Below are positions 1,354-55,417 of a stretch of 64,000 nt of DNA, one piece after another. This DNA comes from an uncultured Flavobacteriaceae bacterium (lineage in GTDB: Bacteria; Bacteroidota; Bacteroidia; Flavobacteriales; Flavobacteriaceae), in contig CANLWB010000009.1 of assembly GCA_947494695.1 (NCBI GenBank), positions 186,001 through 250,000 on the forward strand. Reading direction: 5' to 3'. The translations under genes were made by a program, and so were the position numbers. The first letter of the stretch is position 1. Every line of letters begins with the position of its first letter. The notes under the pieces were generated by a model. The model was not told the DNA's origin and searched no databases. It worked only from the letters and a program-made list of their open reading frames with translations.

Positions 1354-2670
1354 ATGAGTAAATCTATCTCGGGTTTTTCTAAACTAACCAAATCAAAAAA
1401 AATCGATTGGATTGTTGACACTTATTTTTCAAATACGGAAGAAGCTAAACGTGTTTTAATCCAATATTGGAATACAGATGAAAAACTGCAACAACTCCAT
1501 GATGAGTTTATTGAAAATACGATAACCAACTATTACCTGCCTTTGGGTGTGGCTCCTAATTTTTTAATTAACGATAGGCTTTACACGATTCCTATGGCTA
1601 TTGAAGAAAGTTCGGTAGTTGCTGCGGCGAGTAAAGCTGCAAAATTCTGGTTAGATCGCGGCGGATTTAAAACACGAGTTGTTTCGACCACCAAAATTGG
1701 TCAGGTCCATTTTATATATAAAGGTGATTTTAATAAATTAAGTCAGTTTTTTAGCGTCATAAAGTCTAAACTTATTGAGGATTCCAAATCGATTACGTCC
1801 AATATGGAAAAACGTGGCGGTGGAATTTTAGATATTGAATTGCGAGATAAGACTAAGGACATAGATCATTACTACCAACTTCACGCATCATTTGAAACCC
1901 TAGATGCTATGGGTGCTAATTTTATAAATTCCTGCCTGGAACAGTTTGCTACAACTTTTAAAAGAGAAGCTCTTGAATTTTATGCTTTCACTGAAGCTGA
2001 AAAGCAAATAGATATTGTCATGAGTATTTTATCTAATTATGTTCCAGATTGCTTAGTGCGTGCCGAAGTAAACTGTAAGGTTGAGGACTTAAGCGAAAGC
2101 GACTCCATATCTGGAGAGGCATTTGCGAAAAAGTTTGTACAGGCCATTAATATTGCTGAAGTAGAGCCTTACCGAGCCGTTACTCATAATAAAGGGATCA
2201 TGAATGGCATAGATGCCGTTGTTTTGGCTACTGGAAATGATTTTAGAGCTGTTGAAGCGGGCGTGCATGCCTATGCGTCCAGAAAAGGCACATACAGCAG
2301 CCTAACTCATGCTAAAATTGAAAACGGAATCTTCTCTTTTTGGATGGATATTCCATTAGCACTGGGTACTGTTGGCGGACTTACGGGTTTACATCCGTTA
2401 GTAAAATTAGCATTAGAGTTATTACATAAACCATCTGCTAAGGAACTTATGCAAATCGTTGCTGTTGCCGGTTTGGCTCAAAATTTCGCAGCTATTCGTT
2501 CACTCATCACAACGGGAATTCAGCAGGGACATATGAAAATGCATTTAATGAATATTCTTAATCAATTCGATGCAAATAACGAGGAAAAGGAAAGGATTAC
2601 CGCATACTTTAAGACGAATACCGTAACACATAGTGCCGTTGTTGAAGCCATTAATAAGTTGAGGGAGTAG
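1354..2670 (+). CDS. mvaA: Hydroxymethylglutaryl-CoA reductase, class II (degradative-type)
   Basis: The 438-residue length fits class II HMG-CoA reductases, which interconvert HMG-CoA and mevalonate. Family landmarks are visible: the catalytic Glu in PMAIEESSVVAAASKAA, DAMGANFINSC in the dinucleotide-binding part, the catalytic Lys and Asp in THNKGIMNGIDAVVLATGND, and the catalytic His region GHMKMH near the C-terminus. Databases call such proteins degradative, but Flavobacteriaceae use the mevalonate pathway, so I infer a biosynthetic role. The GYDIA-type GHMP kinase downstream, separated only by a repeat array and a GIY-YIG gene, supports this. There is no signal peptide, so it should be cytosolic. 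Confidence 0.93.
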   Translation: MSKSISGFSKLTKSKKIDWIVDTYFSNTEEAKRVLIQYWNTDEKLQQLHDEFIENTITNYYLPLGVAPNFLINDRLYTIPMAIEESSVVAAASKAAKFWLDRGGFKTRVVSTTKIGQVHFIYKGDFNKLSQFFSVIKSKLIEDSKSITSNMEKRGGGILDIELRDKTKDIDHYYQLHASFETLDAMGANFINSCLEQFATTFKREALEFYAFTEAEKQIDIVMSILSNYVPDCLVRAEVNCKVEDLSESDSISGEAFAKKFVQAINIAEVEPYRAVTHNKGIMNGIDAVVLATGNDFRAVEAGVHAYASRKGTYSSLTHAKIENGIFSFWMDIPLALGTVGGLTGLHPLVKLALELLHKPSAKELMQIVAVAGLAQNFAAIRSLITTGIQQGHMKMHLMNILNQFDANNEEKERITAYFKTNTVTHSAVVEAINKLRE

Positions 2671-2741: not shown

Positions 2742-3132
2742 GTAGTCGAAGCTACAAAACAATGACGGAACCTCTAAAAAATATTGGCAACATACAACAA
2801 TCAGTGATTTCGACTACGCTCAATCACCGCACAAAAATTAATACCACACCGGTGGCTGAGCGCAGCCGAAGCTACAAAACAATGACGGAATCTCTAAAAA
2901 ATATTAGCAACATACGACAATCAGTGATTTCGACTACGCTCAATCACCGTTCGACTACGCTCAATCACCGCACAAAAAGTAATACCACACCGGTGGCTGA
3001 GCGAAGTCGAAGCTACAAAACAATGACGGAATCTCTAAAAAATATTAGCAACATACAACAATCAGTGATTTCGACTACGCTCAATCACCGTTCGACTACG
3101 CTCAATCACCGCACAAAAAGTAATACCACACT

Positions 3133-3497
3133 GGTGGCTGAGCGCAGCCGAAGCCACATCAATTTAACAGCATATGCCTAAAGGTTTTGTATATATATTA
3201 GAATGTTCAGATGGCACCTTTTACACGGGTAGCACCATTGATTTGGATAAAAGATTAGCGGAACATCAAAATGGTCAGGGAGCTAATCATACAAAGAAAA
3301 GACTTCCGGTTGAGCTGGTATATATTCAGAAATTCCCAAGGATTGATGAGGCTTTCTATAGAGAGAAACAAATTCAGGGATGGAGCAGAAAAAAGAAACA
3401 AGCACTCATCGAAAACAATTTTGATGAATTAAAAAAATATGCTGAATGCATGAATGATAGTCATTATAAAGAGTGGCTTCGACTACGCTCAGCCACC
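3133..3497 (+). mobile_element. GIY-YIG gene bounded by 24-bp inverted repeats (putative mobile element)
   Basis: The left end (3133-3156) begins ggtggctgagcgcagccg and the right end (3474-3497) is its reverse complement with two mismatches in 24 bases. The 365 bp between the outer edges hold almost nothing but the GIY-YIG ORF. These ends are the same arms as in the surrounding 98-bp units, so those units look like non-autonomous derivatives in which a spacer of about 55 bases replaces the gene. I see no flanking target-site duplication, because the neighbouring sequence is itself repeat. Mobility is an inference; the repeat architecture is read directly. Confidence 0.6.
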
Positions 3498-3530
3498 GCA
3501 GATCATAAAAAAAATGAAGATCAGAAATAA
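3174..3530 (+). CDS. Small GIY-YIG nuclease-like protein
   Basis: This 118-residue protein has the single-domain GIY-YIG fold signature: FVYILECSDGTFYTGS (GIY and YIG segments), the Arg in LDKRLAEHQNG, and the metal-binding Glu in AFYREKQIQGW. The domain ends near residue 98, so it resembles UPF0213-type proteins of about 95-100 residues. The last 17-20 residues (LRLRSATADHKK...) are simply translation of the right inverted repeat, so the natural stop may have been lost or the tail is inert. The ATG at 3174 lies 17 bases inside the left inverted repeat. It could be a stand-alone nuclease or the enzyme acting on the surrounding repeats; the second idea is inference from position. Confidence 0.85.
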   Translation: MPKGFVYILECSDGTFYTGSTIDLDKRLAEHQNGQGANHTKKRLPVELVYIQKFPRIDEAFYREKQIQGWSRKKKQALIENNFDELKKYAECMNDSHYKEWLRLRSATADHKKNEDQK

Positions 3531-3743
3531 AGACCTGTCAATACTTATTTCGACAACGCTCAATCACCACACAACAAATAACTCTAAACCGGTGGCTGAG
3601 CGAAGTCGAAGCCACAAAACAATGACGGAATCTCTAAAAAATATTGGCAACATACAACAATCAGTGATTTCGACTACGCTCAATCACCGTTCGACTACGC
3701 TCAATCACCGCACAAAAATTAATACTAAACCGGTGGCTGAGCG

Positions 3744-3764
3744 CCCGCCTGCCGGACGGGCAGG
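3744..3764. repeat. Second palindrome nested in a left arm (copy 2)
   Basis: The left arm ggtggctgagcg is split from its continuation aagtcgaagcc by cccgcctgccggacgggcag plus one g, which folds on itself (CCTGCC-GGACGGGCAGG). It looks like a different palindromic repeat family inserted into the first. Confidence 0.75.
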
Positions 3765-3827
3765 AAGTCGAAGCCATAACCCGAAAGAACACATACCAAA
3801 ACCAAACTCACAAAGCCACACGAAATC

Positions 3828-4736
3828 ATGAGGAACCCTATTTATAGTAATGGAAAACTTTTACTCACTGGAGAATACGCTGTCCTTGATGGTGCACTGT
3901 CTTTAGCCGTGCCTACTAAATTCGGACAGTCCTTATCGGTCGAGGCCATCGACGTTCCCCAAATAATATGGAAAAGTTTGGATGAAAACGATGCTATTTG
4001 GTTTGAAACCGATATTTCTGTGGAACATATTAATTCGAATACCGTAACCAATCACGAGTATACAGATCGGCTTATTCAAATTTTAGGAGCTGCTAAAAAG
4101 CTTAATCCCGACTTTTTAAGTGATGGTCGTGGTTATAATGTTTCTACCAAACTGGATTTCCCAAGACATTGGGGGTTAGGCACCTCTTCGACATTAATAA
4201 ACAATATTGCTCAATGGGCCAATATTGATGCTTACAAGCTCTTAGAGCTGACCTTTGGTGGCAGTGGGTACGATATTGCATGTGCACAGCATGACTCTTC
4301 TATCCTTTATCAATTAGAACACAACAAACCTTTTGTAAAATTGGTAGATTTTAACCCAGTTTTTATAGATCATCTATACTTTGTATATCTAAACAAAAAA
4401 CAGAACAGCCGAGATGGCATAAGGCATTATAATGCCAATAAGACTAATTTAAAATCCGTTCTTGAAGATATTAACAAGATTACTTCTGAGGTGATTAATA
4501 CAGCCAACCTGGAGCATTTTGAAACCTTGATAGATAAACATGAAACCATCATATCTAAACTAACCAGGCAAGCCCCTGTTAAGACACGTCTCTTTAGTGA
4601 TTTTAAAGGCAGTATTAAAAGCCTTGGCGCCTGGGGAGGCGATTTTGTCCTGGCTACCACTAAGAACAACCCAATCACCTATTTTAAGGATAAAGGGTTT
4701 GAGACCGTAATTCGTTATAGTGATATGGTCTTATAA
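3828..4736 (+). CDS. GYDIA family GHMP kinase (mevalonate-pathway kinase candidate)
   Basis: The 302-residue protein has GHMP-kinase layout: an N-terminal GKLLLTGEYAVLDGALSLAVP strand-loop, the ATP-binding segment PRHWGLGTSSTL (GHMP P-x3-GLGSS), and GGSGYDIACA, the motif that names the GYDIA subfamily. GHMP kinases phosphorylate small metabolites such as mevalonate, phosphomevalonate or galactose. The nearby HMG-CoA reductase argues for a mevalonate-pathway substrate, but which kinase step it performs cannot be read here. The ATG lies 53 bases past the end of the repeat array, so its promoter may lie in or beyond the repeats. Confidence 0.88.
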   Translation: MRNPIYSNGKLLLTGEYAVLDGALSLAVPTKFGQSLSVEAIDVPQIIWKSLDENDAIWFETDISVEHINSNTVTNHEYTDRLIQILGAAKKLNPDFLSDGRGYNVSTKLDFPRHWGLGTSSTLINNIAQWANIDAYKLLELTFGGSGYDIACAQHDSSILYQLEHNKPFVKLVDFNPVFIDHLYFVYLNKKQNSRDGIRHYNANKTNLKSVLEDINKITSEVINTANLEHFETLIDKHETIISKLTRQAPVKTRLFSDFKGSIKSLGAWGGDFVLATTKNNPITYFKDKGFETVIRYSDMVL

Positions 4737-55079: not shown

Positions 55080-55417
55080 CATATTACCACGCAAAAAAGT
55101 AAAGATGCGCTTGTCATTAAAAACGAGCCACTCGTAACATCATTTACCTCGTTTATGTATATTTTTATATACGGCACCTTATTTTATTACAAATTTGTAC
55201 AAGGTTATATTAAACATAAACACCTTATTATGTTGAGTGCTTCGACTGCGCACAGCCCGTACTTTGTCAAGATGTTTTCAGACCGCTATTAATTAATATA
55301 AATTTTGACAAGTCTTGCCTTGAGCGGAGTCGAAAGACTCAAGATAAATTCAATGTAAACTACGATGATTTTTAGATCTTTTTATAAACTTTAAGCGTCC
55401 AAATCAAATTATTCGAC
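55080..55417. other. Gap containing an inverted repeat
   Basis: The 338 bases hold the palindromic repeat at 55233-55342 and no gene. The first part (ttattttattaca... ) is AT-rich. Confidence 0.4.
55233..55342. repeat. Inverted-repeat REP-like unit
   Basis: The left arm ttgagtgcttcgactgcgc at 55233-55251 and right arm ttgagcggagtcgaaagact at 55320 onward are near reverse complements, enclosing about 65 bases. The core gctTCGACTgcgc is related to the arms of the 2.7-3.8 kb array, but the sequence is otherwise different. Confidence 0.65.

Follow-up and report, generated by a model that had tools for sequence, protein, structure and literature searches.

The GIY-YIG locus

The window, the whole 64,000-nucleotide stretch of DNA that was analysed, was taken from an uncultured Flavobacteriaceae bacterium and contains a small GIY-YIG nuclease gene between the gene for HMG-CoA reductase (HMGR) and an open reading frame of 302 residues (Table 1). 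The latter is presumed from its sequence to be a GHMP-type kinase; no Pfam family was matched. The spacer between the two neighbours is 1.16 kb long and consists, besides the GIY-YIG ORF, of an array of arm-type sequence in which thirteen 15-nt cores were found on both strands, allowing up to two mismatches. The two arms nearest the gene are 25 nt long and were complementary at 23 of 25 positions (92%) in the repeat search. A preliminary description of this DNA had the gene enclosed exactly by the arms. Their flanking position and near-perfect complementarity, with two mismatches, were confirmed, but the downstream arm is coding (E-W-L-R-L-R-S-A-T) and the stop codon at 3528-3530 lies beyond it, so that the gene is not exactly enclosed. 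The same arms were found in gene-free units on both sides of the gene, as had been described, and the repeat families gave a unit of approximately 141 bp. One solitary core lies elsewhere in the window, with none of the GIY-YIG genes listed for the genome nearby.

Table 1. Features of the GIY-YIG locus and its repeats, in window coordinates.
Feature	Position	Strand	Evidence or remarks
HMG-CoA reductase gene, left neighbour	1354..2670	+	PF00368, E 6e-95
Hairpin copy with longer loop insert, left array end	2707..2757		
Gene-free upstream array, hairpins with two stem types	2809..3132		unit ~141 bp
15-nt cores of upstream array	2809(+), 2856(-), 2929(+), 2950(+), 2997(-), 3070(+), 3091(+)		
Upstream hairpin arm	3133..3157 (15-nt core 3138-3152)	-	repeat and core search
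Small GIY-YIG nuclease gene, 118 aa	3174..3530	+	ORF; PF01541, E 3.7e-19
Downstream hairpin arm, within 3' end of GIY-YIG ORF	3473..3497 (core 3478-3492)	+	
Gene-free downstream array	3549..3744		cores 3549(+), 3596(-), 3669(+), 3690(+)
Hairpin copy with 26-nt insert between TCGA and CTC, right array end	3729..3771	-	
302-aa ORF, right neighbour	3828..4736	+	no Pfam match; adjoins HMGR in genus and family
Solitary 15-nt arm core	55320..55334	-	genome core search (G000:C9:241320-241334)

Structure of the repeats

Each arm forms a small hairpin in which the loop, GAGCGNAGTCGA (TCGACTNCGCTC on the opposite strand), is conserved and the complementary stem varies, with a tag on the 5' side. Since this loop is asymmetric, the inverted repeats of the locus are one hairpin repeat present twice in opposite orientations. 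The general layout is a 4-nt tag, a stem of 4-7 bp whose sequence is free, and a loop or internal loop that is conserved. This loop has TCGA and CTC on its two sides and encloses a tip of 3-5 nt or, in other copies, a longer inner hairpin. The longer variant, seen in loci that lack short arms, reads TCGATAC-inner hairpin-ACTC between outer stems. The tag sits outside the stem at positions -8 to -5. Some families have GTCA preceded by T; that of the window has G at -7 (87%), T at -5 (71%) and often C at -8 (57%).

The pairing of the stem was measured on 328 distinct copies, gathered by the core alone from the loci collected, with no stem demanded. Stem positions 1-4 paired in 97, 94, 93 and 88% of these copies; shuffling of the left and right flanks among copies lowered this to 70, 52, 30 and 37%. 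A perfect stem of at least 4 was present in 258 of the 328, and those 258 contained 66 different 5-nt stems. Copies with the loops GAGCYTGTCGA (107 copies) and GAGRYTCTCGA (48) gave the same pattern of a free but paired stem. The combination of a conserved loop with a stem that is free in sequence yet paired therefore indicates selection on a hairpin.

Hairpin copies occur singly, as inverted doublets and in arrays, and the gene occupies one spacer of the array in the window. Twenty stretches were picked for a doublet-like look from the listed core positions, and all 20 were read. Many copies lay 34 to 55 bp apart (72 bp in one case), for example as TGTCA-hairpin-spacer-hairpin-TGACA, which is the arrangement of a REPIN. 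Genes of clade II, one of the GIY-YIG clades defined below, share the outer frame of the doublet, TGTCA-hairpin-gene-hairpin-TGACA, and the nearest arm pair had its tags outward in 47 of the 75 loci with short arms on both sides.

The GIY-YIG protein

Profile, alignment and structure model all placed a GIY-YIG domain with Tyr, Arg and Glu in the protein of the window, residues that presumably have catalytic roles. Sixteen arm-bearing homologues share Y7, Y17, G19, R27, H31, E64, W70, K74 and K75 among others. The dN/dS ratio was 0.03-0.18 in the pairs where dS was computable; the protein is under purifying selection. The structure model had a mean pLDDT of 83, and the nearest folds retrieved with Foldseek were UPF0213 proteins, followed by Slx1. 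The small GIY-YIG proteins of the UPF0213 type, BH0048 (1zg2) and EF2693 (1ywl), contain the same domain over their full length (E 3e-22 and 4e-18 with the A1 profile), and we know of no repeats associated with either. Slx1 is a structure-specific endonuclease that cuts branched DNA. Its likeness to the model extends over 67-79 columns at an rmsd of approximately 2-4.6 Å, with weak E-values of 0.003-0.05, and it differs in being a eukaryotic, two-subunit enzyme without known cognate repeats. These nearest folds would fit an enzyme that acts on hairpins or cruciforms. The protein had no match in PADLOC or PHROGs, and its matches in plasmid and phage collections were all under 60% identity.

Filled and empty states of the HMGR junction

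The preliminary description had proposed a search for empty sites in relatives, and these were found: in 8 of the 12 species of the genus the junction between HMGR and the presumed GHMP-type kinase is empty, HMGR and the next gene being 18-64 nt apart with neither a GIY-YIG gene nor an arm between them. The other four species are filled, and the three genes besides that of the window are 83-87% identical to it. At 28 loci from other genera of the sampled family genomes the gene and arms were missing from 27, the filled one being that of genome G085. The site is also filled in Bizionia arctica, three Winogradskyella, Lutibacter oceani and two metagenome-assembled genomes (MAGs), and a third MAG record has a GIY-YIG gene behind HMGR and stops before the next gene. 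The filled state required at least four changes on a tree of HMGR and the GHMP-type kinase, with locus L161 left out as its contig ends. Repeated loss, repeated gain at one junction or transfer of the whole segment could each account for this pattern.

The gene and arms had been described as one minimal element. Movement of the gene with its arms as one unit is not supported: the gene keeps the same site in several genera, and no recent jump was seen. The arms were also considered as the terminal repeats of a compact transposon; this was rejected on three grounds: the arms are hairpins, that downstream of the gene is part of its coding sequence, and several genera have the gene at one site. 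By eye, no target-site duplication was noticed in the comparison of filled and empty sites or in the doublets. A GIY-YIG gene at the same place without arms had been named as a sign that the link is coincidental, and the gene of G085 (L049) was considered as such an armless ortholog. It was rejected in that role because arms with a changed loop, GAGGCTCTCGA, occupy the same positions.

In several filled sites the GIY-YIG frame continues without a stop into the kinase, namely in L049/L271 (G085), L150 (Bizionia), L153 (Winogradskyella luteola) and L080, L083 and L089 (genus of the host). These fused frames read the arm as a linker; the gene of the window is separate.

Association of the hairpins with GIY-YIG genes

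The association predicted from the window was measured on 82 GIY-YIG genes from 77 loci of the host family, comprising best matches, further matches by rank and loci of the host genome itself; the best 30 and the next 41 by rank among the window-protein matches listed were read. The canonical 15-nt core lay within 200 bp of 18 of the 82 genes; 32.5 kb of flanking sequence contained 40 copies, and 400 kb of random sequence drawn from 20 of the genomes contained none. With a wider definition of the short arm (TCG, 4-7 nt, CTC and a perfect stem of at least 4), arms were found within 200 bp of 35 of the 82 genes, on both sides in 26, amounting to 91 copies in the 32.5 kb of flank compared with 8 in the 400 kb background. 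Two scrambled-core controls gave 0 and 3 of 82, compared with the 35 for the real pattern.

The hairpins were not spread evenly over the protein tree, on which the presence of arms required 9 changes compared with 26.7 for shuffled labels (0 of 500 shuffles were as low). Short arms accompanied 12 of 13 genes in clade I, to which the window belongs, 18 of 21 in clade II, 3 of 6 in clade III, none of 12 in clade K and 2 of 30 other GIY-YIG genes. Longer-looped arms were found at all 12 clade K genes, at the remaining three of clade III and at none of the 30 others, with one match in the 400 kb background; this definition was made after inspection of the loci, a first stricter filter having matched none, and the background count is that of the loosened version. 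Taken together, hairpins accompany 48 of the 52 genes in these four GIY-YIG clades and 2 of the 30 other GIY-YIG genes.

Outside the family, GTDB genomes were scanned with a 16-row alignment, giving at least 591 pattern matches of which 534 were confirmed and the best 80 used; the figures below therefore speak for the best homologues. A short arm lay within 200 bp of 70 of these best 80 of 534 loci (both sides in 49, upstream only in 10, downstream only in 11), at a density of 5.0 per kb near the gene compared with 0.13 per kb beyond 500 bp, and two scrambled cores were found near none of the 80. Of the ten loci that lacked short arms, seven had a longer-form match, two of them (L187 and L193) weak by eye. 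Of the 48 Bacteroidota records 43 had arms, as did 27 of the 32 others, with phylum labels taken from record titles and many of the records being MAGs. The armed loci included 5 of 5 each from Gammaproteobacteria, Cyanobacteria and Chloroflexi and single records from Planctomycetota and Nitrospirota, and among the records titled as strains were Sphaerospermopsis kisseleviana NIES-73, Cysteiniphilum sp. JM-1 and Methylomonas koyamae. Clade labels of the best 80 are those of the best BLASTP match, with narrow margins for L221, L227 and L228. The link between arms and GIY-YIG genes put forward in the preliminary description is thus borne out as clade-specific and present in many phyla.

Dispersal of the repeats and matching to the enzyme

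In the 5.49 Mb host genome the 15-nt core TTCGACTNCGCTCAR has 49 copies and its reversed sequence none. These cores fall at approximately 22 places, just one of which has a GIY-YIG gene. Across the 12 genomes of the genus there were 17 to 103 cores per genome, and the reversed pattern was absent from all. Within the family, the median number of canonical cores was 18 in the 26 genomes with an armed gene, 2.5 in the 38 with unarmed matches only and 1 in the 36 without a match, a comparison that is partly circular because an armed gene brings its own arms. Among the 31 genomes with at least ten cores, the loci read included no armed GIY-YIG gene for 13, and the 54 cores of G080 are accompanied by no match to the protein of the window at E ≤ 1e-3. 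The concern, raised beforehand, that the arms might occur genome-wide with no tie to GIY-YIG genes has a two-sided answer: arms do occur genome-wide and mostly lie away from the genes, but the association across genomes is strong.

G080 shares its state with G097, G027, G015 and G058, these five genomes having 10-54 canonical cores without a window-protein match at E ≤ 1e-3, and in them the enzyme may be lost or more distant. The host genome also contains an array of about nine 123-bp units with two alternating hairpins (L035, G000:C11:154600-155700), at which no GIY-YIG gene was seen.

Both tag and loop were found to be matched to the gene. Among the arms of clades II and III, 63 of 81 had the tag GTCA, compared with 1 of 252 for clade I. 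The arms of the gene in G085 and G074 have the loop GAGGCTCTCGA. Across 100 genomes this loop (TTCGAGARCCTCA) had 35 copies in G085, 19 in G033, 18 in G074, 5 in G006 and one each in eight others, so that at least 15 copies were reached in only three genomes, including both whose gene carries that loop. The exception is G033, which has its 19 copies of TTCGAGARCCTCA but a broken gene with a different loop. Similarly, the arms of the gene in G042, G024, G079 and G039 have the loop GAGCYTGTCGA, and the top five of the 100 genomes for copies of this loop are G039 (27), G079 (27), G024 (23), G005 (22) and G042 (18); TTCGACARGCTCA reached at least 15 copies in five of the 100, including all four whose gene carries it. 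The loop type at the gene predicts the dispersed loop type in the same genome, with one mismatch, G033.

Comparison with REP repeats and alternative explanations

REP sequences are repeats served by RAYT transposases. REP/RAYT systems have a tagged hairpin, inverted doublets, arrays, dispersed intergenic copies and a gene flanked by its own repeat type, with a separate gene for each of the repeat types that share a genome, and with a gene that does not multiply with the repeats (PMC3733652, PMC6006769); a stable home site with dispersed copies is among the features reported (PMC6006769). The repeats of the window type are like REPs and REPINs in having a four-base 5' tag, a hairpin, inverted doublets, arrays and dispersed intergenic copies. 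The GIY-YIG gene is like a RAYT in being flanked by its own repeat type, matched genome-wide, and in being stable and not multiplying with the repeats, and here too several types occur in one genome, each with its own gene. Unlike the RAYTs, the nuclease is of the GIY-YIG type (PF01541) and not HUH/Y1; unlike the REPs, the tags are GTCA or CGKT-like and not GT[AG]G, and the conserved part is the loop TCGA...CTC, the stem being free. The parallel with RAYTs drawn in the preliminary description holds in anatomy (tagged hairpin, doublets, flanked gene and matching dispersed copies).

The window probably holds the home locus of a REP/REPIN-like repeat family served by a cognate small GIY-YIG nuclease in place of an HUH transposase. 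The occurrence of gene-plus-hairpin sets across phyla, with their types matched, suggests a second and independent counterpart of the REP-repeat systems. We incline slightly to a broader, pan-bacterial reading. In it, at least four clades of small GIY-YIG nucleases would each have a cognate hairpin family with the shared TCGA/CTC internal-loop signature, changes of tag and loop would go together with changes of the enzyme, and the dispersed repeats would be made and maintained by that enzyme, as has been proposed for RAYTs and REPs, but through an unrelated fold and with no covalent tyrosine intermediate. The nuclease would recognise the extruded or single-stranded hairpin through its loop and tag and would nick it; repair or replication from such nicks could then copy hairpins to new places and keep the copies of one genome alike. 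The host may retain the gene for a by-benefit, for example in the control of recombination or DNA uptake. Cleavage by the GIY-YIG nuclease and mobility of the repeats are putative, proposed from sequence.

It was considered whether the repeats are ordinary REPs made by a RAYT or IS200-type tyrosine transposase (PF01797), with the GIY-YIG gene a passenger in repeat-rich spacers. PF01797 genes are present in 40 of 100 family genomes, the host genome has three PF01797 matches, two of them approximately 1-3 kb from arm cores on contig C17, and Bacteroidetes have RAYT-type genes with atypical repeats (PMC6006769). However, only 1 of 30 PF01797 loci read had a short arm within 200 bp and 2 had one within 1 kb. 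Core-rich genomes track armed GIY-YIG genes (18 of 26 compared with 13 of 74, Fisher p 2.7e-6, partly circular) and do not track PF01797 (15 of 40 compared with 16 of 60, p 0.28), four genomes (G085, G054, G073 and G076) have 36-56 cores and no PF01797 match, and a passenger gene would not show the match of tag and clade. With an arm within 200 bp of one PF01797 locus in 30 and no link at the genome level, RAYT genes were rejected as the main cause of the repeats, and the passenger explanation is very improbable. Still less probable is a role of the hairpins in transcription termination or RNA stability at small genes of mobile appearance, without any relation to the protein. Their position between genes and near gene ends would suit that role, but no T run is required, the stems are free and the loop is fixed, copies lie upstream as often as downstream, and other GIY-YIG genes are without them.

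GIY-YIG homing enzymes exist, and the patchy presence of the gene at one site (four of the 12 species of the genus, one of the 28 loci from other genera, and the further genera and MAGs named above), with at least four changes forced on the tree, would be expected if a free-standing homing endonuclease cut the empty HMGR/GHMP-kinase junction of relatives and was copied in, the arms being incidental. This is unlikely: close armed homologues occur at other sites in other genera and their arms would be left unexplained, and a single gain with repeated loss, or transfer of the whole segment, fits the pattern too. A more serious possibility, although we consider it less likely than not, is that the nuclease is a sequence-specific ssDNA endonuclease of the Ssn type that acts on the repeats during DNA uptake or recombination, the repeats being marks spread by ordinary recombination. 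Ssn is reportedly a small, site-specific GIY-YIG ssDNA endonuclease of Neisseria meningitidis with a target repeated in the genome, and on this description the likeness would extend to the small GIY-YIG protein, the site specificity and the genome-repeated target. The protein of the window falls among small GIY-YIG proteins, with UPF0213 nearest in the PDB, the target resembles a structure that forms in single strands, and the patchily present gene is under strong purifying selection. Against this, the matched tags and loops, the doublets and the arrays at the gene look like copying tied to the enzyme. The earlier statement that no system of this form has been described is made doubtful by Ssn and its repeated target. 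A full-text search of a limited collection found no paper on an association between GIY-YIG genes and hairpin repeats. If the work on Ssn covers these hairpins, the present system is a member of that kind; otherwise the matched hairpin families across phyla are new.

Should the cognate-nuclease reading be correct, an unrelated nuclease fold has reached the REP/REPIN way of life, and the palindromic repeats that are widespread between genes in Bacteroidota, Cyanobacteria, Chloroflexi and Proteobacteria gain a candidate enzyme. The function of small GIY-YIG proteins would become testable, with the clade-matched pairs of enzyme and hairpin as ready substrates for specificity swaps and possibly as hairpin-specific nicking tools. 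The system would also be an independent case in which to ask why bacteria retain repeat-serving nucleases.

Tandem GIY-YIG genes

Several loci contained more than one GIY-YIG gene. In the host genome, outside the window, three near-identical small GIY-YIG genes lie in tandem with no short arms nearby (L030, G000:C9:151779-152608). Two identical clade K genes lie approximately 1 kb apart amid longer-looped hairpins in L097 (G013:C15:34564-35863). Tandem GIY-YIG genes were also seen in L316 (G106:C29:12286-13185) and L318 (G107:C22:6470-7659), where the repeated blocks show 90-92% identity over 358 and 775 nt, respectively, and are local duplications of the gene together with its hairpins.
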